Assembly: GCA_946479745.1 (NCBI GenBank)
Contig: CAMLGZ010000002.1
Coordinates: 62,001 to 126,000 of the forward strand
Reading direction: 5' to 3'
DNA: 64,000 bases
Source: an uncultured Pseudoxanthomonas sp.
GTDB lineage: Bacteria; Pseudomonadota; Gammaproteobacteria; Xanthomonadales; Xanthomonadaceae
The notes below the pieces were generated by a model. It worked only from the letters and a program-made list of their open reading frames with translations, was not told where the DNA came from and searched no databases. This document shows positions 33,282 to 42,844 of the stretch, piece after piece. Each line of letters starts with the position of its first letter. Position 1 is the stretch's first letter. Made by a program: the position numbers and the translations under genes.

Positions 33282-34352
33282 ATGTCAATAACGACCACTT
33301 CCCTGGCCGCCGATTCCGAAAAAGAGAGCCTTGCCACTCGCTTGGCGGAATCCGGCCGGCTTCCCGACAACCTGCTGCGGATGGGCATTCGCCGCCAATG
33401 CGCGCAACGCCTGAAAGACGAACGCAAGGGCGGCACGGACGAAGTATTCGCGCGCCAGCAGGCTTGGCTGGAAGGGTTGCGCAACAGCGATGCCGTCCAG
33501 ACACAGACAACCAATCGCCAGCATCACGAACTGCCGCCCGAGTTCTTCCAGCTATGCCTGGGCAGGCAGCTCAAATACAGCAGTTGCTATTGGGATGAGG
33601 CGACCACCAGCCTGAACATGGCCGAGGAACACATGTTGCGCCTGTACGGCGAGCGCGCAGAGCTGGCCAACGGCCAGCGCATCCTGGAGCTGGGTTGCGG
33701 CTGGGGCTCGCTGACCTTGTGGATGGCCAAGCAATACCCGGAATCCAGGATCACCGCAGTCTCGAATTCCAAGATGCAACGCGAGTACATCGAGGCCCGC
33801 TGCCTGGAACGCGCCATCTTCAACGTGGAAGTGGTCACTGCGGACGTGAACAGCCTGCGTATGCAGGACGAGAGCTACGACCGCGTGGTGTCGGTGGAAA
33901 TGTTCGAACATATGCGCAATTACCAGGACCTGCTGTCGCGCATCGCCGGCTGGCTGGTGCCTGGCGGCAAGCTGTTCGTGCACCTTTTCTGCCATCGCGA
34001 ATTGCTTTATCTGTTCGAAGCCAAGGGCGAAGGCAACTGGATGGGCCGGCATTTTTTCACCGGCGGGCTGATGCCATCGGCAGACACTTTGCTGCATTTC
34101 CAGGACAGGATTGCCATCGAACAACGCTGGCTGCTGTCCGGCACGCACTACGAAAAAACCGCCAATGCCTGGCTACAGAACCAGGACAACAACCGCGAGC
34201 AGGTCATGCGCGTGCTGCAGACCGTCTACGGCATGGTCGACGCGCCGGTCTGGTACCAGCGCTGGCGCATGTTCTGGATGGCGTGCGCGGAGTTGTTCGG
34301 CTATGACAACGGCAACGAATGGATGGTCGCCCACTACCGTTTCCGGCGCTGA
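33282..34352 (+). CDS. Cyclopropane-fatty-acid-synthase-like SAM methyltransferase
   Basis: A 356-residue class I methyltransferase. The SAM motif I is ILELGCGWGSLTLWMAKQYP, followed by a CFA-type region (EYIEARCLERAIFNVEVVTAD, VVSVEMFEHMRNYQDLLSRI) and the HLFCHRELLYLF segment. Relatives include short CFA-synthase-like proteins and coclaurine N-methyltransferase-like enzymes; methylation of unsaturated lipids is the usual guess. GGAG lies 7 bases before the ATG. The last 19 bases overlap, tail to tail, the end of ligD on the other strand. A decayed DUF1295-like partner lies just upstream, so the original two-gene unit may have lost a function. Confidence 0.82.
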   Translation: MSITTTSLAADSEKESLATRLAESGRLPDNLLRMGIRRQCAQRLKDERKGGTDEVFARQQAWLEGLRNSDAVQTQTTNRQHHELPPEFFQLCLGRQLKYSSCYWDEATTSLNMAEEHMLRLYGERAELANGQRILELGCGWGSLTLWMAKQYPESRITAVSNSKMQREYIEARCLERAIFNVEVVTADVNSLRMQDESYDRVVSVEMFEHMRNYQDLLSRIAGWLVPGGKLFVHLFCHRELLYLFEAKGEGNWMGRHFFTGGLMPSADTLLHFQDRIAIEQRWLLSGTHYEKTANAWLQNQDNNREQVMRVLQTVYGMVDAPVWYQRWRMFWMACAELFGYDNGNEWMVAHYRFRR

Positions 34353-36850
34353 CGGCCTGATGACGCCGGGTCTGCCTGGGTTCCGGGCAGATCCTGGCGC
34401 AGGTTTTCCACCCCTTCCCACGGATCGCTGCGCAATTTGCCAGCGCGTTGCAAGGCGCGAGCCATCGTATACATGCCGGGAGCGGTGACCTTCGCCAGCT
34501 CCTCCCACCGCAGCGGCATTGCCACGGTTGCCTCTTCGCGGGCGCGCAGCGACCAGGAGCAGACGCTGGTCGCGCCACGTGCATTGCGCAGCCAGTCGAT
34601 GAAGATCACGCCGTCGCGCTTGGCCTTGCTCATGGTGGCGACATATTTTTCCGGCGAATGCGCGGCCAGCGCTTCTGCGAAGGCGCCGCAGAAATCCTTG
34701 ACCTGGCTCCAGTCGGGGCCGGGCGTGATCGGCACGACTACATGCAGGCCCTTGCCGCCGGACAGGCGCAGATAACTCTGTAAACCCGCCTGCTGCAGGC
34801 GTTTGCGAATATCGCGCGCGGCCGCCTTGACCTTGGTCCAACCGACGCCAGGGCCGGGATCCAGATCGAAAACCAGGCGGTCGGGCTTTTCCGGCGCCGT
34901 TGTTCTTGACCCCCATGGATGAAACTCCAGGGTGTTCATTTGCACCAGTTCGAGCAATCCGGCTTGATCCTGCAGATACAGATAGTCCTCGCTTCCGCTT
35001 TTCTGCTTGAGCGTGATGGCCTTGATCGATTTTCCCAGCGACTCGCTGTAGTGCTTCTGGAAGAAGCATTGGCCTTGGGCGCCATCGGGGCAGCGGACCA
35101 GCGACAAGGGGCGCCCCGCCAGCTCCGGCAGTAGCCAGCGTGCGACCTGCCGATAGTAGGCGGCCACTTCTCCCTTGCTGATTTTTCCCTTCTTGTAAAC
35201 GATGCGATCGGGGTGGGTGATGGATACATCGTTCGAATCGGAATGGGGATCGAGATCCTGCATATTCTTGTCCTCGCGCAATCGTTTGAAGCTGGCTTGC
35301 CGCAGCAGCCCTTCTTTCGCCCAACCTCGGAAGGCCACCTCGGCGATGAGTACCGGTTTCACCCACCGCACGCTATGGGCGGAGAACGGCACGTGGCCCG
35401 GCAGTTCCACGTTTGCGGTGTCGATCCGCAATTCAGTCAAGGCGGTTTCCAGCGATTTCAACGTGGAGTCGTCGAAGCCCGTTCCCACCCTGCCCACGTA
35501 GCGCAAGACGCCGTTCTCCGGAATCGCCATCAATAGCGATCCGAATCCGCTGCGCGAACCCTTGGGCGCGGTATAGCCGATGATCACGAATTCATCGGTG
35601 TCTTCGTGTTTGACCTTGGCCCAGGCATTGGAGCGCGACTGGCTGTACCTGGAGTCGATACGCTTACTGACTATGCCTTCCAGGCCTTTGGCTTTGCTGG
35701 CTTCGAAAACCTCTTTGCCATGCCCCAGTACATGTTCGCTGTAAGCGATAACGCCGGCGCGCTTGCCGACGAGGTCCTTGAGCAGCGACTTCCGGTCGAT
35801 GAGCGCAGCATGGCTGAGGTCGATGCCGGCAATGCTGGGCATATCGAAGACGACATAGCGCAAGGGCTGTTTCGAAGTTCCATCGATAGCGCGTTGCAGC
35901 GCGCTGAAATCGCTACGGCCTTCCTGATCGATCACCACCAGCTCGCCGTCCAGGCGCACGTCCTTCACCGGCAACGCTTCCACGGCATGGGTAACTTCGG
36001 GAAATGTCTCGGTCCAGTCCAGCTTGCCGCGCGACCTCAGCTTGACCTTGCCACCGATCAGATCGGCCATCATCCGGTAGCCGTCCCATTTTATTTCGTG
36101 CAGCCAGTCGTCGCCGACCGGCGCGGTTTCGCGGCTGCTGGCCAGTTGCGGGGAAAACCCGGACGGATAGTCGCCCTTGCGTGCTCCCGGCATATCCAGG
36201 GCGCGCTGCCGCCACCTGTCTGATTTCAAAGACCCGCGCTGTTTGGCGGGCGCTGCGGCCTTCCTGTTTCCGGCCTTCTTCTGTGGCAAGCCCTGAGTCA
36301 GCAGGCCGTCCGCATCGGCATCGCCGGAATACTCGTCCTCGCGCTTGATAAGAAGCCATTGCTTCTGCTTGCCGCGCATGTTGGTGCGCACCAGTTTCCA
36401 TGCTCCATTGAGTTTTTCCCCATGCAGGACGAAGTCCAGCTTGCCCGCGGCAATGGCTTCAAGCGGATCGCCTTCCCCTGCCCAGGTGCCATGGTCGAAC
36501 ACCTCTACGTGCCCAGCCCCGTAGTTGCCTTCGGGAATGTCGCCCTCGAAGGTGGCGTAGGCTAGCGGGTGGTCTTCAACTTCGACGGCGAGCCGTTTCT
36601 CGCCGGTGCGTAACGAAGGTCCCTTGGGTACCGCCCAGCTTTTAAGCACGCCATCCGCTTCCAGTCTGAAATCGTAGTGCCGGGCAGTGGCATGATGCAG
36701 TTGCACCACGAATATCGGGCGATGCCGTGCGCTGGAAGCCGCACCCGGGCGTTTCGTGCCGGTTGTGCGTGGAGCGGGGGCGCCTGTATCGGAATCCGGC
36801 TCTGAGGTTTCGTTGAACCGCCGCTTGCGGCTGTAGTCGCGCAACGACAT
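34334..36850 (-). CDS. ligD: ATP-dependent DNA ligase D (NHEJ)
   Basis: An 838-residue, three-domain end-joining enzyme. Order: phosphoesterase (residues about 45-170; LHHATARHYDFRLE, EGNYGAGHVEVFD), ATP-dependent ligase (about 245-530; the adenylated Lys is K254 in HEIKWDGYRMM), and primase-polymerase (about 550-820; FDLDPGPGVGW carries the catalytic Asp pair). It repairs double-strand breaks with Ku. Its ATG lies 3 bases after the Ku stop and reuses the AAGG at that junction as ribosome site, so the two are co-translated. All key residues look intact. Its end overlaps the methyltransferase gene on the opposite strand. Confidence 0.95.
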   Translation of the reverse strand: MSLRDYSRKRRFNETSEPDSDTGAPAPRTTGTKRPGAASSARHRPIFVVQLHHATARHYDFRLEADGVLKSWAVPKGPSLRTGEKRLAVEVEDHPLAYATFEGDIPEGNYGAGHVEVFDHGTWAGEGDPLEAIAAGKLDFVLHGEKLNGAWKLVRTNMRGKQKQWLLIKREDEYSGDADADGLLTQGLPQKKAGNRKAAAPAKQRGSLKSDRWRQRALDMPGARKGDYPSGFSPQLASSRETAPVGDDWLHEIKWDGYRMMADLIGGKVKLRSRGKLDWTETFPEVTHAVEALPVKDVRLDGELVVIDQEGRSDFSALQRAIDGTSKQPLRYVVFDMPSIAGIDLSHAALIDRKSLLKDLVGKRAGVIAYSEHVLGHGKEVFEASKAKGLEGIVSKRIDSRYSQSRSNAWAKVKHEDTDEFVIIGYTAPKGSRSGFGSLLMAIPENGVLRYVGRVGTGFDDSTLKSLETALTELRIDTANVELPGHVPFSAHSVRWVKPVLIAEVAFRGWAKEGLLRQASFKRLREDKNMQDLDPHSDSNDVSITHPDRIVYKKGKISKGEVAAYYRQVARWLLPELAGRPLSLVRCPDGAQGQCFFQKHYSESLGKSIKAITLKQKSGSEDYLYLQDQAGLLELVQMNTLEFHPWGSRTTAPEKPDRLVFDLDPGPGVGWTKVKAAARDIRKRLQQAGLQSYLRLSGGKGLHVVVPITPGPDWSQVKDFCGAFAEALAAHSPEKYVATMSKAKRDGVIFIDWLRNARGATSVCSWSLRAREEATVAMPLRWEELAKVTAPGMYTMARALQRAGKLRSDPWEGVENLRQDLPGTQADPASSGRQRRKR

Positions 36851-36853
36851 CCT

Positions 36854-37753
36854 TCAGCTCGCCTTGCGCTTGGCCGCCTTCTTGGCTGGCGCTTTGGCGG
36901 CTGCCTTCTTTGTCGCTTTCCTGGGCTTGGCGGCCGTCTTCTTGGCTGGCGTTCTCTTTTTGCTGTCCAGGCTCTTCTGCAGCAAGGACATGAAGTCCAC
37001 CACATTGGTGGCCGCATCTTCGGGCTCGGTGCTGGATTCCGCGATCCTGGTGGTGGCGCCCTTGGACTTCACCCGCTTCTGGATGATGGCCTGCAGCCGT
37101 TCGCGGAATTCGTCGTGGTAATCGTCCGGCGACCACTTGCCCGACATGGAAGAGATCAGTTGTTTGGCCATTTCCATTTCCTTGGGCGTGATGCGGTAGT
37201 CGGAGGCTTTACCGGAGGGAAGTTTGTAGTCGGTGGGATCTACAAGTTCCTGCGGGTAACGCAGCAGGATCAGCACGATGGCATCGTCCTCAGGCATGAC
37301 CGTACACAGGTATTCGCGGGTGCGGATGACTACGCGGGCGATGCCGATCTTCTTGCTCGACTTCAGGGTTTCGCGCAACAGCACATAGCCCTTCTCCGCT
37401 TTCTTGCCCGGCACCAGGATGTAGGGCTTCTCGTAGTAGCGCTGGTCGATGCTGCCCGCGTCGATGAACGCTTCCACCTCTACCGATTCATGGCTCTCCG
37501 GCGCCGCGGACTGGATGTCCTCCTTTTCCACGGTGACGTAGTTGCCCTTGGAATATTCGAAGGCCTTGACGATGTCCTTCCAGGGGACTTCCTCGCCGGT
37601 CTCGGCGTTGACGCGTTCGAAACGGATCGGATTCTTGTCGCGGGAATCCAGCATGCGGAAATGCAGATCCACCTTGCGTTCGCCGGACATGAGCGAGACA
37701 GGGACATTCAGCAGGCCGAAGGAAAGCGTGCCGGTCCAGATGGGTCTTGCCAT
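36854..37753 (-). CDS. ku: Non-homologous end-joining protein Ku
   Basis: A 299-residue bacterial Ku. The core beta-barrel starts MARPIWTGTLSFGLLNVPVS and includes RYYEKPYILVPGKKAEKGY and LRYPQELVDP. The C-terminus from about residue 262 is a Lys/Ala-rich tail (PAKKTAAKPRKATKK) like those that bind DNA and LigD. The ATG has an excellent site (AAAGGAG, 6-7 bases upstream), which fixes the start ten codons inside the open frame. Ku threads on DNA ends and recruits LigD, encoded 3 bases downstream. No other repair genes are adjacent. Confidence 0.95.
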   Translation of the reverse strand: MARPIWTGTLSFGLLNVPVSLMSGERKVDLHFRMLDSRDKNPIRFERVNAETGEEVPWKDIVKAFEYSKGNYVTVEKEDIQSAAPESHESVEVEAFIDAGSIDQRYYEKPYILVPGKKAEKGYVLLRETLKSSKKIGIARVVIRTREYLCTVMPEDDAIVLILLRYPQELVDPTDYKLPSGKASDYRITPKEMEMAKQLISSMSGKWSPDDYHDEFRERLQAIIQKRVKSKGATTRIAESSTEPEDAATNVVDFMSLLQKSLDSKKRTPAKKTAAKPRKATKKAAAKAPAKKAAKRKAS

Positions 37754-37909
37754 GATGATCTCCTTTGACGGACGGCCCGTCATGCTTGCGGCGATCTGGA
37801 ACCGATACCGCCGCGGCCGTTATACAGGCGTGAGGAAGCGCAACGGCGCTTCACCTGTGGTTTCGCGCAGCCGCGCATCATGCGGAGAATCTTCAACGGA
37901 GTCGCACGG

Positions 37910-38374: not shown

Positions 38375-39706
38375 TCAGAACGTTACCGGGACGCGCACCG
38401 TAAAACTGAGATCCGGCGTATCGCGGGTCAGGCCGGCGCCCAAAGCGACATTCAGCGATGCCTTGTCGTTGAAGCGATAGGTTCCCCCCAACAGCAGCGT
38501 AGCCAGGGTCACGCGCACGGCGCCCGCCACGTCCTGGCCGTTCTGCTTGGTCTTGCCGATGATGTTCTGGTCGTAACCGATACTGATCGCGGCTTTCTCG
38601 TTGAGGGCTAGGCCCATGCCCAGGTTGAAGCCGATGATGTCGCCGGCTTCGACATCGCCCAGGAACTCCTTCTGTCCGCCTATGACGGTGCGCGAGACAT
38701 CGCTGCGCTCGAAGTTGTGCAAGTAGCTCAAGCTGCCGAAGAAGACCACGGGATCGGAAGGAAACAGCCAGGTGATGCCCGGTTGCAGAGCATTGAAGCC
38801 GCTGCCGGTGGGCAGATCCAGGGGAAGACCGGTGCCGGTGGTGTTGCCGATGCAGCGGGTGACGCAGTCGGTAGTCACCTCGAACAGATCGGTGCCGGTG
38901 CGGCTCTTGTAGCGCAGCCAGGCGACGTAATAGGGCTTGTCCGGACCTCCACGATTGAGTTGATAGCGGGCGGTCACTTCCACATCGCCCAGACCGCTGC
39001 CTCTTGCGTTGAACACACGATCCACCGCCGAACCGGTGAAAATTTCGCGACTGACCGTGTCGCTGTTGACGTAGACATAAGGCAACCTGGCTTCCATCTC
39101 GAAGCGGTTGCCCATGCCGTAGCGGGCGGTCAGCACAGCGGTCGCCGAGGTGGTCTTTACCTGGCGCACGTCGATCAGGCCGATCAGCAATGCGGGAATG
39201 ATGGTGTAGCCGACCAGGGCGACGCGATCGTTGGAGGCGTATCCGTATTGCAGTCCGGGTTCCAGCACCAGCGTTCCGGAAGGCGTCAGCACGCCGGGTT
39301 GATCGAAGATCTGCGCCACTTCCGGCGGCCTGTTCTGCGATTCCGGCGCCTGCCCCACGGGTTGCCGGGAAGGCTCCTGTGTGGCGGCGGCCTGTGCATA
39401 GGCAGGTACCTGCATGGTGCCAGTGGTAAGCACGGGTGCGGGCAGGCCGCGGGCGCGCGCATTGGCCAGCAGCTCTTCGTTCAAGGCCTGCTGCAACTGG
39501 GAAAGATTGCGCTGTTGCGTTTCCAGCGAACTGCGCATGTCGTCCAACTGGTGCGATTGCTCGTTGATCTGCCGTTGCAGGCCGTCCAGTCTGGATTCTT
39601 CAGTGACGGTACCGGTTTCCTGCGCGTGCAGCGATCCGCAGATCGCCAGCGCCAGACAAGCCATGGGTAGCAGAGCAAGCAGCTGCGGCGGTCCATTCCG
39701 TTTCAT
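38375..39706 (-). CDS. Outer-membrane beta-barrel with N-terminal coiled coil, FapF-like
   Basis: A 443-residue exported protein. The signal ends ICGSLHA. Residues about 38-85 form a coiled coil (ESRLDGLQRQINEQSHQL, MRSSLETQQRNLSQLQQALN), then a Pro/Gln-rich linker (to about 150), then a beta-barrel domain to the terminal Phe (VRVPVTF). This design matches FapF of Pseudomonas, a trimeric outer-membrane pore whose helical N-terminus plugs a 12-stranded barrel and exports amyloid subunits. It is the last gene of a five-gene operon, 22 bases after the preceding gene, with GGGGA before the ATG. Sequence similarity to FapF cannot be scored here; the assignment rests on architecture and neighbours. 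Confidence 0.72.
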   Translation of the reverse strand: MKRNGPPQLLALLPMACLALAICGSLHAQETGTVTEESRLDGLQRQINEQSHQLDDMRSSLETQQRNLSQLQQALNEELLANARARGLPAPVLTTGTMQVPAYAQAAATQEPSRQPVGQAPESQNRPPEVAQIFDQPGVLTPSGTLVLEPGLQYGYASNDRVALVGYTIIPALLIGLIDVRQVKTTSATAVLTARYGMGNRFEMEARLPYVYVNSDTVSREIFTGSAVDRVFNARGSGLGDVEVTARYQLNRGGPDKPYYVAWLRYKSRTGTDLFEVTTDCVTRCIGNTTGTGLPLDLPTGSGFNALQPGITWLFPSDPVVFFGSLSYLHNFERSDVSRTVIGGQKEFLGDVEAGDIIGFNLGMGLALNEKAAISIGYDQNIIGKTKQNGQDVAGAVRVTLATLLLGGTYRFNDKASLNVALGAGLTRDTPDLSFTVRVPVTF

Positions 39707-39728
39707 GCGTTATCCCCGTTGGCTGTTT

Positions 39729-40238
39729 TCAGGGTGATCCTGGCGAAGCGATAAGCGCGTTGTGCAGCGCGTCGTAAGTGTTTATTTCCTGCAGCATACC
39801 CAAGGTGCCCACACCTACGTTCAACGTGGTCAGCGCGGTGATGGTCTGGCCGTCGAGCGTGTTCTGGATCACCAGCGCATTGCCGCCAGCACCGGGATCG
39901 ATGCGATTGCCCTCGCCGATCTGCACCACCCTGCCCTCGTTGATGGCGGCCAGGGCGCTGGCTTGGTCGGCGGTCATGCGGCCCAGATCGGGGATCTGCA
40001 AGTTCGCGCTGGCGACGAGTTGTCCGTTGACGTAGACCAGCCGTTCGATTCCGAACGAGAGCACCATGCCGGACGGCATCATCAGGCCGCCCCTCATGTC
40101 GGCCAATCGCGCCGGATCCATCGGCACCCATTCTTCGCCGAGTGGCAAGCGCGAATCGACCTGCCCCATGGCGGGCAACGGCAGGCATGCGCTTATCGCA
40201 AGCGTGCACAGGGAAGCGAAAGCGGCGATGGCGTTCAT
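39729..40238 (-). CDS. Exported protein with double-glycine-like site, unknown
   Basis: A 169-residue protein with a Sec signal (MNAIAAFASLCTLAISACLP, cleavage near PAMG). It contains PARLADMRGG (Gly50-Gly51), similar in layout to leader sites cut by C39 peptidases, followed by a beta-rich part (MVLSFGIERLVYVNGQLVAS). Late in the protein is ALVIQNTLDGQTITALTTLN, which recalls the QN-x-G pattern of its operon neighbours. It sits 2 bases after the C39 peptidase gene. By operon position it could be the FapE-like accessory or minor fibre component. No known domain is recognised. Confidence 0.72.
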   Translation of the reverse strand: MNAIAAFASLCTLAISACLPLPAMGQVDSRLPLGEEWVPMDPARLADMRGGLMMPSGMVLSFGIERLVYVNGQLVASANLQIPDLGRMTADQASALAAINEGRVVQIGEGNRIDPGAGGNALVIQNTLDGQTITALTTLNVGVGTLGMLQEINTYDALHNALIASPGSP

Positions 40239-40240
40239 GA

Positions 40241-40933
40241 TCAGATGTCTCCCGGGCCGCGTCTGGGCATGGCGATATTGCGCAGTCCTTCGCGCTGGAT
40301 GCCCATGTCCAGCGGGGCCGGCGGCGCCGTGCGCCAATCGCGTGCCTGGTTGAAGCGCGCTATCCCACGCCGGTTGTGGATCACGAACAGCACCCTGTTG
40401 TCCCACAATGCTTCGAAGCGCGCGCGCGACATCGCGCGCGTGCCCCGCGCCGGATCGCCCAGCAGTACGCGACCGTTGCGCAGACCTTTGACCACGACGA
40501 AATGCCGATAGCCGCGGTCGTTCAACAACACGATCGCTGGCACGCCTTCCTCGGACAGCTTGTCCAGCGGCAGTTCGAACCCATCGGCCTCGAAACCCTG
40601 CGACTGCAGATAGCGCCGCATGTCCAGCATGGAGAAGCCTTCCTTGCGGATCTTGGCCTGGTCGCCATGCGTGTACATCTTCACGAAGACCTGTTCTTCG
40701 TTCACCGGCACGCCGTACTGATAACTCAACAGCGTGGCCGTAGCCGCCGATCCGCAACTGAAATCGTAACGCTGAGGCACGGTCGTTCTGAACCGTGCCT
40801 CCTTCAGGCTGGTGATGCGCAGACCATAGCTGCCGCCATAGGGCGCACGCACATCGATCCCGCCCGCGAGCACGGGAACGGCATATGCCAACGACAAGGC
40901 GGTGGCCACGATCATGGAAACGATCCGGGTCAC
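40241..40933 (-). CDS. C39-family cysteine peptidase, FapD-like
   Basis: A 230-residue exported peptidase without an ABC-transporter part. The signal MIVATALSLAYAVPVLAG is followed by the C39 triad: C60 in QRYDFSCGSAATATLL, H144 in GYRHFVVVKG, and D160 in LLGDPARG. Stand-alone C39 peptidases of this form serve Fap amyloid export and related systems. The start is GTG and overlaps the previous stop as GTGA; an ATG six codons in is the alternative. Two neighbouring gene products carry candidate double-glycine cleavage sites, which would make them natural substrates. The catalytic residues look intact. Confidence 0.85.
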   Translation of the reverse strand: MTRIVSMIVATALSLAYAVPVLAGGIDVRAPYGGSYGLRITSLKEARFRTTVPQRYDFSCGSAATATLLSYQYGVPVNEEQVFVKMYTHGDQAKIRKEGFSMLDMRRYLQSQGFEADGFELPLDKLSEEGVPAIVLLNDRGYRHFVVVKGLRNGRVLLGDPARGTRAMSRARFEALWDNRVLFVIHNRRGIARFNQARDWRTAPPAPLDMGIQREGLRNIAMPRRGPGDI

Positions 40934-41406
40934 GGCGGCGGTGCCACAAACTGTACGTTGACGACCATTCCGTTCTGGATCAGCACATTGCTGCCGGTGT
41001 TCTGGATCACTGTGTTGATGCCGTTGCCGTTGGCGAAAGATCCGTCGCTGATGACGTTGGCGCCGCTGACGATATGGTCGGCGGTGTTGCCTTCAACGGT
41101 TCCGTCTATCAGCACGTCGTTATCGACAGTGCTTTCCCCTCCGCGCAGGCTGTCCAGTTCTCCGGCATCGACCGGCGTTCCGATGCCGTCGACGCTGGCA
41201 TGCTCGACTGGTGCCGCAGGGGTTCTTTCTGCGTCGGCGGGCATGCCTTCCATGAGCGGGGCGTCCGCAATTACGATCGCTTCCGCACGGATCACGGACA
41301 ACTGATCGGCATCGGATGCCCGCGCAGAGATCTCCAGGTTGCCCGCGAAACAGGGACCCGTCGCAATAGCGCAGGCCAGTAAAGAAATAATGCGATTGAT
41401 GCGCAT
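40930..41406 (-). CDS. Exported protein with canonical double-glycine site and curlin-like C-terminus
   Basis: A 158-residue protein. After a Sec signal (IISLLACAIATGPCFAG) comes an acidic, Ala/Pro-rich stretch, then GELDSLRGG (Gly89-Gly90). Its spacing, Glu at -8, Leu at -7, Leu at -4 and Gly-Gly at -2/-1, equals the leader consensus of C39-processed peptides. The part after the site is Asn/Gly/Asp-rich and ends in VIQNTGSNVLIQNGMVVNVQ, much like amyloid repeat units. The ATG has GGGAGA about 8 bases upstream. It overlaps the C39 peptidase gene by 4 bases. No database family is recognised; a FapB- or FapE-like part is inferred. Confidence 0.72.
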   Translation of the reverse strand: MRINRIISLLACAIATGPCFAGNLEISARASDADQLSVIRAEAIVIADAPLMEGMPADAERTPAAPVEHASVDGIGTPVDAGELDSLRGGESTVDNDVLIDGTVEGNTADHIVSGANVISDGSFANGNGINTVIQNTGSNVLIQNGMVVNVQFVAPPP

Positions 41407-41515
41407 GGTGGTTTCTCCCTTTCCACGCGTTCCGCACGCGCTGCCGCCCATTCCGGGGCGATTGCGCGTAATGCACCAGGCCGCCGTAACGGCCCGGTGC
41501 ATCGTTGCGAACCGC

Positions 41516-42844
41516 TTACGGACCTACGGTCAGGTTGGCCTGCACGGTGATGCCCTGCTGGATCAGCGAAGCCGCGCCGCTGTTCTGAGCCGCCACCATG
41601 ACGCCTGCGGCCGATTGGCCAACACTGGTCATGTTGTTGGACATGTCGAAGGCGCCTGCGTCGTTGGCGACTGATCCGCCGTTTCCGCCCGCACCACCGA
41701 CCGCTCCGTTGCCGACACCGCCATTGCCGGTGCCTCCATTGCCGTCGCCGCCCACGCCGCCTTCGGCGCCTACCGCGCCCATGGCGCCATCGCCGGCTGT
41801 CGCATCGCCATTGGTCGCGCTGGAGGACGCGCCGCCGTTGGTGGCATCGCCATTGGTGGCCGAACCGCCATCGCCGCCGTTGCCCGCAGTGCTGGCCACG
41901 TCGCCACTGTTGCCGCCCGTGCCGGAGCCCGCGCCGCCGGTAGCAGTCGCCGCACCTGCAGTGCCAGCGCCGCCGGTTGCCGTGCCGGATCCGCCGGTGC
42001 CGGTGCCGTCGCCCGAAGTGCCGGCGCCGCCGGTACCTGTGGCATCGCCGCTGCTGCCGTTACCGGCGCCGCGCTCGCGTACCCAACCGCTCTGGCCACT
42101 GCCATCGCCGCCGCCGGCCGCGCTCAACCCGCCGCCATCGCCGCCGCCCGCAGAACCATCGCCGCCGCCGGCCGCGCTGATACTGCCGGCATCGCCGCCG
42201 TAGCCATCGCCATCGCCGCCGCGACCGCTATCGTTGTGATCGGAACGCCCGCCACGGCCACCGTTGCCGGCGACTGCGTCACCGATCGAGGCGCTGCCGT
42301 TGCTGGAATCGCCAGCCGATGCGCTGCCGTTGTTGGCATCGCCGCCGGAACCGCCATTGCCGCCGTCGCCGCCGGCACCGCCATTGCCGCCATTGCCTTC
42401 GCCACCGTAGCCGTCGCCGCCGTAGCCGTCGCCGCCCGCGCCGCCTCTTGCACCATTGGCATCGCCCCAGTTGTTGGCGACATTGCCGATATCGTGCACG
42501 CGCACATCGGTGACGTAGCCATCGAGTCTGGTCGTGGCAACGGCTTTACTGTGGTTGAAGGAATTCGAGAAAGTGGCCGTGGCCGTTCCGCCGTTGTTGG
42601 CGGCTGCCGTGCCGTAACCGTCCGCATAAGCGACGCCGTTGGCGCTGTTGTCACTGTTGTCGCTGTTATCGCTATTGTCGCTGTTGTCACTGTTATCGCT
42701 GTTGTCTGTAAGAGTGATCGTGTCGATCGCTACCTGCAGATTTTCGCCAGCGCCGTTCTCGGTATTTTCCGCGGCAAACGCCTGGCCGCCCAATCCCAGG
42801 CCGAGCGCGACCGCAGATGCTATCAAGGTCTTTTTTGTACTCAT
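41516..42844 (-). CDS. Secreted Gly/Asn/Asp-rich repeat protein, candidate fibre or matrix subunit
   Basis: A 442-residue protein and the first gene of the Fap-like operon. The Sec signal (TLIASAVALGLGLGGQAFA) is followed by TITLT and seven exact Asp-Asn-Ser triplets, a short unique region, and about 280 residues of irregular GG-x-GG and (N/D)G-rich low complexity reminiscent of PGRS or glycine-rich matrix proteins. A distinct C-terminus follows (VGQSAAGVMVAAQNSGAASL, then IQQGITVQANLTVGP). No Cys is seen. The ATG is chosen because AGGAGA lies 6 bases upstream; a nearer ATG touches that site. It occupies the position of the main amyloid subunit in Fap loci, but its composition is unlike FapC, so the role is inference. 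Confidence 0.78.
   Translation of the reverse strand: MSTKKTLIASAVALGLGLGGQAFAAENTENGAGENLQVAIDTITLTDNSDNSDNSDNSDNSDNSDNSANGVAYADGYGTAAANNGGTATATFSNSFNHSKAVATTRLDGYVTDVRVHDIGNVANNWGDANGARGGAGGDGYGGDGYGGEGNGGNGGAGGDGGNGGSGGDANNGSASAGDSSNGSASIGDAVAGNGGRGGRSDHNDSGRGGDGDGYGGDAGSISAAGGGDGSAGGGDGGGLSAAGGGDGSGQSGWVRERGAGNGSSGDATGTGGAGTSGDGTGTGGSGTATGGAGTAGAATATGGAGSGTGGNSGDVASTAGNGGDGGSATNGDATNGGASSSATNGDATAGDGAMGAVGAEGGVGGDGNGGTGNGGVGNGAVGGAGGNGGSVANDAGAFDMSNNMTSVGQSAAGVMVAAQNSGAASLIQQGITVQANLTVGP
42644..42706 (-). repeat. Tandem 9-base repeat, seven copies, coding (Asp-Asn-Ser)7
   Basis: Seven 9-base units encode exact Asp-Asn-Ser triplets with synonymous variation (AGC/AGT, GAC/GAT, AAC/AAT). 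The protein repeat is therefore conserved beyond the DNA repeat. Slipped-strand length change is possible. Confidence 0.9.

Follow-up and report, generated by a model that had tools for sequence, protein, structure and literature searches.

Which kind of export system is encoded by five tightly packed genes of an uncultured Pseudoxanthomonas sp., and where would its peptidase cut? The genes lie on the minus strand of a 64,000-nucleotide stretch (contig CAMLGZ010000002.1 of assembly GCA_946479745.1, positions 62,001 to 126,000), here called the window, to which all coordinates refer. The operon encodes a Fap-like secretion system that has a cargo of its own, and it probably represents a second, long-diverged class of Fap-type amyloid export with periplasmic C39 processing and export through a FapF-type barrel. 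Two things look new: a double-glycine-type site in two small exported proteins, and a module common to the C-terminus of the cargo and to mature small protein 1. The main value of the operon is that it appears to expose a probable cut site for FapD-type peptidases, whose site is of interest because FapD activity is required for amyloid secretion.

All five open reading frames (ORFs) of the original prediction are present on the minus strand; its order is corrected, as the C39 peptidase sits between the two small proteins. The operon starts with the secreted Gly/Asn/Asp-rich cargo (442 aa, 41516..42844), which has no Pfam or NCBIfam match and 33 relatives, followed by small exported protein 1 (158 aa, 40930..41406, 239 homologues), a stand-alone C39 peptidase related to FapD (230 aa, 40241..40933, matched by Pfam PF03412 and NF058616), small exported protein 2 (169 aa, 39729..40238, 223 homologues), a putative short FapE homologue by its FapE profile match, and a FapF-type outer-membrane barrel with an N-terminal coiled-coil-like segment (443 aa, 38375..39706, matched by NF058560 and PDB entries). 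Coiled-coil and signal-like segments were judged by eye and alignment. The peptidase gene has a GTG start and overlaps the end of small protein 1 by 4 nt, and 2 nt separate its stop from the start of small protein 2, as for one transcript. Of 56 loci, 43 have all five genes in this order, so that the five genes stand together more often than by chance. Among the 13 incomplete loci, five end at a contig edge before the cargo, three are outgroups with the barrel on the opposite strand, one carries a frameshift, two are canonical Fap loci and two (L051, L054) show the peptidase alone by script.

The peptidase carries the predicted intact triad (Pfam Peptidase_C39, E 1.1e-22) behind a signal-like N-terminus. 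Residues Q54, C60 (40754-40756, minus strand), H144 (40502-40504) and D160 (40454-40456), which we take to be the oxyanion and triad residues, are near-invariant (at least 97% in 51 aligned peptidases). Against NCBIfam FapD (NF058616) the peptidase scores 142.7 bits (E 9.9e-42; the cut-off of 330 is not reached), and against FapF (NF058560) the barrel scores 169.5 bits (E 9.8e-50; the cut-off of 700 is not reached); the second-best NCBIfam models are FilB for the peptidase (126.7 of 475 bits) and FilC for the barrel (40.1 of 630 bits). The FapF model is matched over residues 44-443, including the coiled-coil part that had been predicted at the N-terminus, and the barrel also matches the FapF crystal structures PDB 5o67, 5o65 and 5o68 (E 1.8e-28 to 3.2e-27). 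Both proteins match their canonical counterparts, FapD and FapF, with a probability of 100 in profile-profile comparison. A canonical fap operon of the same bacterial family (locus L089), in which A to F are each recognised, also falls below the cut-offs (FapD 260.9 bits, FapF 378.3 bits), at about twice the scores of the window proteins. The locus thus belongs to the Fap superfamily in the wide sense, with a C39 peptidase of intact catalytic residues beside a FapF-type barrel, and the placement of either protein in an unrelated family, which the original prediction had named as speaking against itself, was tested and did not occur. The FapA to FapF profile searches that it had proposed gave a divided result, with FapD and FapF matching below their cut-offs, FapB weakly, and FapA and FapC finding no match; for FapA the scan covered the five operon proteins only.

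In the scheme that we favour, the exported proteins of the operon would enter the periplasm by Sec, and the periplasmic C39 peptidase would cut both small proteins at the motif LxxxRGG or directly behind it, removing a disposable propeptide in the way that cytosolic C39 domains remove double-glycine leaders. Exit via the FapF-type barrel would follow, for the small proteins in their mature form and for the cargo uncut. Outside the cell the shared module would let small protein 1, in a FapB-like role, nucleate or co-assemble with the cargo, while small protein 2 would take the part of FapE; the fibre core may be formed by the C-terminal module of the cargo, with the Gly/Asn/Asp-rich region as a hydrated coat around it. 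A wider proposal is tentative and could fall either way: the operon might stand for a second widespread Fap-type class missed by repeat-based surveys, LxxxRG[G/R/K] might be a general FapD-type cut site at which Sec-exported precursors mature in the periplasm before exit through FapF, and nucleator and cargo might share one module while lineages vary the spacer or the number of modules.

The cargo consists of 30.0% Gly, 15.3% Ala, 9.9% Ser, 9.5% Asn and 8.4% Asp. Its layout comprises an N-terminal signal-like segment, seven DNS tripeptide repeats (42644..42706, minus strand), a conserved middle, a Gly-rich spacer (41650..42466, minus strand, limits approximate and set by eye) and a conserved C-terminus. 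Among its relatives the ends are conserved and much of the middle is variable, and the motif QNSG..LIQQ is found near the C-terminus in 42 of the 43 complete loci. The C-terminal module (41519..41647, minus strand) is homologous to mature small protein 1 by profile-profile comparison (probability 95.3, E 2.1e-8, with reversed controls at background). The likening of the cargo to PGRS-type proteins is accordingly not upheld, since its Gly-rich stretch varies among orthologues and what is conserved is the module held in common with small protein 1. The module may be the unit of assembly, and the Gly-rich stretch a spacer or coat that varies.

The cargo also offers arguments for the rival account that the secreted product is a hydrated surface coat or adhesin, rich in Gly/Asn and not amyloid, with the small proteins as anchors rather than nucleators: most of each Lysobacteraceae cargo is marked by the Gly-rich stretch (median 30% Gly in the 43 complete loci), the module is present in a single copy at the C-terminus, and the cargo, when tried as a FapC, matched neither FapC nor FapB by hidden Markov model (HMM) or profile. 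We consider this account rather unlikely, because the Gln/Asn-rich module and not the spacer is the conserved part, and because distant cargos encoded at the corresponding place of the operon have four module copies without any Gly-rich spacer. The latter were found in loci L113 and L122 (three cargos from two genomes, each built largely of four copies), where the small protein 1 HMM matches with E 5e-22 to 5e-26 and none of 1070 shuffled sequences reaches 1e-3. Orthologues from Ectothiorhodospira and Thioalkalivibrio likewise have cargos with 6-8% Gly that are rich in Ser, Asn and Asp and have no Gly spacer. Cargos were picked by script as the long ORF with the highest Gly content among those that end near small protein 1, a choice that favours Gly-rich genes; the cargos of L049, L050 and L052, in which the spacer is absent, are Gly-poor despite this. 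In L113 a second module-repeat cargo (L113:6021-6944) lies beyond small protein 2, and one operon may thus serve two cargos.

The proposed cut sites are LDSLRGG in small protein 1 (residues 84-90, 41137..41157, minus strand) and LADMRGG in small protein 2 (residues 45-51, 40086..40106, minus strand). Strict LxxxRGG is kept in 50 of 53 rows of small protein 1 (52 loci and the window), the three others, L049, L050 and L052, reading LxxxRAR, and in 53 of 53 rows of small protein 2. Across 51 aligned rows of small protein 1, L84 and R88 are conserved at 100% and each Gly at 94%. A broader pattern, L..[LMIVQA]R[GA][GRK], occurs in all 53 rows of each small protein and in none of 57 peptidases, 50 cargos and 26 FapB and FapC rows; a tight site pattern was met in 12 of 1370 control frames, all patterns having been chosen after the site had been seen. 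Distant small protein 2 genes recognised by BLAST carry the site in ten of ten cases, as [LM]xxxRGG.

Double-glycine leaders of C39 substrates have hydrophobic residues at -7 and -4 and Gly at -2 and -1. Both small proteins hold such a leader-type site, hydrophobic at -7 and mostly also at -4, with Gly at -2 and -1 and an extra Arg at -3. Small protein 1 is built of a signal-like segment, a poorly conserved propeptide-like stretch, the site and a conserved 68-aa part; its conservation, given as the mean share of the commonest residue, rises from 0.21 before the site to 0.65 after it. Alignments A1 and A2, of small proteins 1 and 2, comprise the window protein and 57 and 42, respectively, of 120 listed homologues (239 and 223 overall). 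In low-confidence structure models a seven-residue helix ends directly before the Arg in both (residues 81-87 of small protein 1, 42-48 of small protein 2). Foldseek returned no match to the model of small protein 1, and a search of small protein 2 against PDB sequences gave nothing under E 0.5. On this pattern of conservation LxxxRGG looks like the cut site of the C39 peptidase.

A related site is present in FapE. The pattern [LM]xx[hydrophobic or Q]xG[RK] occurs in 29 of 29 FapE sequences, with Arg before the Gly in 26. The set comprises 22 distinct FapE from Lysobacteraceae and other Gammaproteobacteria and seven from an order-level search; rows were required to reach at least 160 bits and were deduplicated on the last 60 residues. 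For L055 and L056, both among the 22, the script did not find the pattern and the site was read by eye, and a narrower pattern found in 13 of the 22 is an undercount from trimmed starts. The four FapE above the NCBI cut-off (336-348 bits) all carry the site, e.g. ELAQLRGKYVMPGRVISFGI, where the window reads RLADMRGGLMMPSGMVLSFGI. Around the site small protein 2 matches FapE profiles with a probability of 88-90 (at 90, with E 1.8e-6 over 31 columns), and none of its 43 aligned members matches NCBI FapE (NF058559) at E<=0.1. We take small protein 2 to be a short FapE homologue, and regard the LxxxRG[RK]-like site of FapE as a candidate FapD cut.

This bears on a published question; statements on cited papers refer here to the available parts of their text. 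FapD of Pseudomonas sp. UK4 is active in the periplasm, and the exchange C38A of its catalytic Cys blocks secretion; the first ~70 residues of FapE were not detected by mass spectrometry (MS), the target of FapD was left unclear, and Fap proteins are described as being without canonical C39 sequences (PMC5557850). According to a 2018 review the substrate of FapD is yet to be determined (PMC6173800), and according to a 2025 review FapD is thought to process FapE and FapF (PMC12822426). The explicit double glycine kept in the two small proteins names a testable site, in FapE as well. In canonical FapA of Lysobacteraceae (L083, L086, L089-L092) a leader-like stretch was seen in six of six rows, as ELSDEEYASLGAG in two and as variants in the others; against a leader in FapA, peptides were detected by MS throughout the protein (PMC5557850).

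The conserved motif might instead be an uncut docking element for the peptidase, the barrel or an assembly partner. Inactive C39-like domains do exist in some type 1 systems (PMC5557850), the second Gly is replaced by Arg or Lys in FapE, and the conservation of small protein 2 drops little before the site. This explanation is nevertheless unlikely, given that the catalytic Cys, His and Asp are near-invariant, that the pattern with its hydrophobic -7 and -4 positions fits a double-glycine leader, that small protein 1 is far less conserved ahead of the site than behind it, and that secretion needs the catalytic Cys of FapD (PMC5557850).

Several observations weigh against Fap-type export with cleavage at LxxxRGG. 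The scores of peptidase and barrel are less than half of the NCBI cut-offs, and the three-repeat FapB/FapC proteins are absent, with 2 of 58 small protein 1 members matching FapB at E<=0.1. At E<1e-3 the small protein 1 HMM finds 12 of 48 cargos and not the one of the window; it also finds one of 52 small proteins 2 and none of 22 FapE, 10 FapB and 16 FapC. As this HMM misses the window cargo, the module link of the latter rests on profiles and on intermediates such as the cargo of L049, which the HMM matches with E 4e-8. The Arg is absent from 3 of the 29 FapE, and two of eight distant rows of small protein 1 lack L..xR[GA]. In small protein 2 conservation is 0.41 before the site and 0.63 after it, a weak contrast measured on only 15 preceding residues, and both structure models are poor, with a predicted local distance difference test (pLDDT) of 51 and 58. 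The published MS gap in FapE extends to about residue 70, while the site lies near residue 38, as read by eye in a FapE above the cut-off; the FapF linker has been named as a possible FapD target too (PMC5557850), and one paper depicts FapD as modifying FapC (PMC10638192). Finally, the broad pattern is not exclusive to the small proteins, as 36 of 51 barrels of window type carry it; strict LxxxRGG is found in no barrel.

The barrel match lies in the linker after the coiled coil and may be chance in an Ala-rich helix or a cut site of the barrel. In 26 of the 36 barrels Ala stands at -4, and the broad pattern occurs in 3 of 22 canonical FapF. The barrel was set aside as a further FapD substrate, its pattern having mostly Ala at -4 and never reading LxxxRGG. 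Small protein 1 was likewise tried as a FapB and set aside on a weak local match (16.8 of 190 bits; profile probability 36).

How far the system stands apart from known fap operons was judged from the barrel. FapF was searched in 297 genomes of Lysobacteraceae, the family of G001 (the L001 genome), and 120 of them match. The scores form two classes, with 77 genomes at 320 bits or more (canonical) and 55 genomes at 125-169 bits, like the window, the low class being defined by barrel score with fragments of G535, G661, G521 and G616 set aside; 14 genomes have both. In a tree of 73 barrels, rooted by midpoint and subject to a warning of long branches, 48 barrels of window type and three outgroups (from Ectothiorhodospira, Thioalkalivibrio and an alphaproteobacterial metagenome-assembled genome, MAG) are split from 22 canonical ones at 100/100. 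Judged from these barrel sequences the operon is a sister system of canonical fap in a separate clade; the two score classes, the 14 genomes with both and the tree split speak for this rather than for a decayed canonical operon. The forecast of a related but distinct system is in this respect supported at the level of sequence.

A canonical fap operon that has simply drifted and lost fapA would account for a gene order that parallels B/C-D-E-F, and among the variants of known fap operons those without fapA are the commonest (PMC6173800). Such an origin is most improbable in view of the coexistence of both barrel classes in 14 genomes and the fully supported split, and of the lack of FapB/FapC repeats by HMM and of NCBI FapE matches among the 43 members of small protein 2. 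With fapABCDEF the window shares neighbouring genes for a FapD-type C39 peptidase, a FapF-type barrel homologue and a FapE-like protein with a matching LxxxRG site. It differs in that its five genes include no recognised FapA, FapB or FapC, that cargo and small protein 1 are of another family, and that its proteins score far under the NCBI cut-offs. A double-glycine-type site next to a C39 peptidase could also suggest an antimicrobial exporter, with the small proteins as double-glycine peptides of bacteriocin type; this reading is barely credible beside signal-like N-termini, a FapF-type barrel, a module common to small protein 1 and a large cargo, and five genes without an ATP-binding cassette (ABC) transporter.

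Compared with the C39 ABC transporters of bacteriocin export, the window peptidase has the same family and catalytic residues, with a double-glycine-type site in its proposed substrates, but it is a separate, exported protein. The putative pilus system Fil (FilB, FilC) also has a stand-alone C39 peptidase beside a FapF-like barrel; the window proteins fall under the FilB and FilC cut-offs, and the Fil-like loci L103-L107 show no small RGG protein by script. A literature search on the Fil system found no papers. Curli (csg) follows a similar logic of nucleator and major subunit with Gln/Asn-rich repeats, whereas the window has a FapF-type barrel and a C39 peptidase; the NCBIfam scan of the five proteins gave no curli match, and no separate curli profile was run.

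Fap-type export as proposed here would reach well beyond the window. Small protein 2 was found in 13 of 369 gammaproteobacterial genomes (alignment search, E limit 1e-3) and NCBI FapE in 15 of 369 (E limit 1e-5), with both in one; in all 13, small protein 2 lies at most 957 nt from a FapD/FilB-type C39 gene detected in a separate search. Of 51 C39 matches 20 were fetched, a choice biased to genomes without a FapE match, and a FapF-type barrel lies within the fetched region at all 20 of these peptidase loci and at four of four outgroup loci. Ten of the 20 have small protein 2 by BLAST and L109 and L116 by position and site; five are Fil-like, and three (L114, L120, L121) encode [LM]xxxTAG leader proteins. 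In these three the C39 gene is near a FapF-like barrel, and the motif of the signal-bearing neighbours comes right after the signal segment; these neighbours may be another class of periplasmic substrates with a double-glycine-type site. Three cargo-like proteins (P0269, P0270, P0272) have a Gly-rich spacer and a C-terminus similar to that of the cargo, P0269 being named as from a Nitrospira MAG, a hint that the class extends past Proteobacteria.

A 2025 genome survey, by the available part of its text, counted only loci with FapB/FapC repeat homologues no more than 5 kb away from other fap genes, so that the window class is expected to have escaped it. The 2018 review reports neighbouring fapD and fapF without the rest in five further phyla (PMC6173800). 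In its available part PMC7716237 names Lysobacter only for exopolysaccharides. No account of this operon type or site was found in the literature searched, which mostly excludes subscription journals.

The window barrel is 95% identical to that of L001, and the host is close to Pseudoxanthomonas sacheonensis. Genes that we presume to be rarA-like and lolA-like lie upstream in 31 of 56 loci, several loci being too short to show them, and on this account the operon seems to be fixed in the chromosome rather than mobile. The barrel gene is nearby on the opposite strand in L049-L052, L109-L113 and L122. Some alignments do not include L053 (frameshifted), L055 and L056 (canonical Fap), L051 and L054, L011 and L031 (cut cargo) and L039. 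A promoter scan found none, and terminators are near background. After the operon, window positions 34334-37783 hold genes that presumably encode Ku and LigD of non-homologous end joining; L001 and L002 have them near the operon as well, and L033 and L034 at a greater distance.

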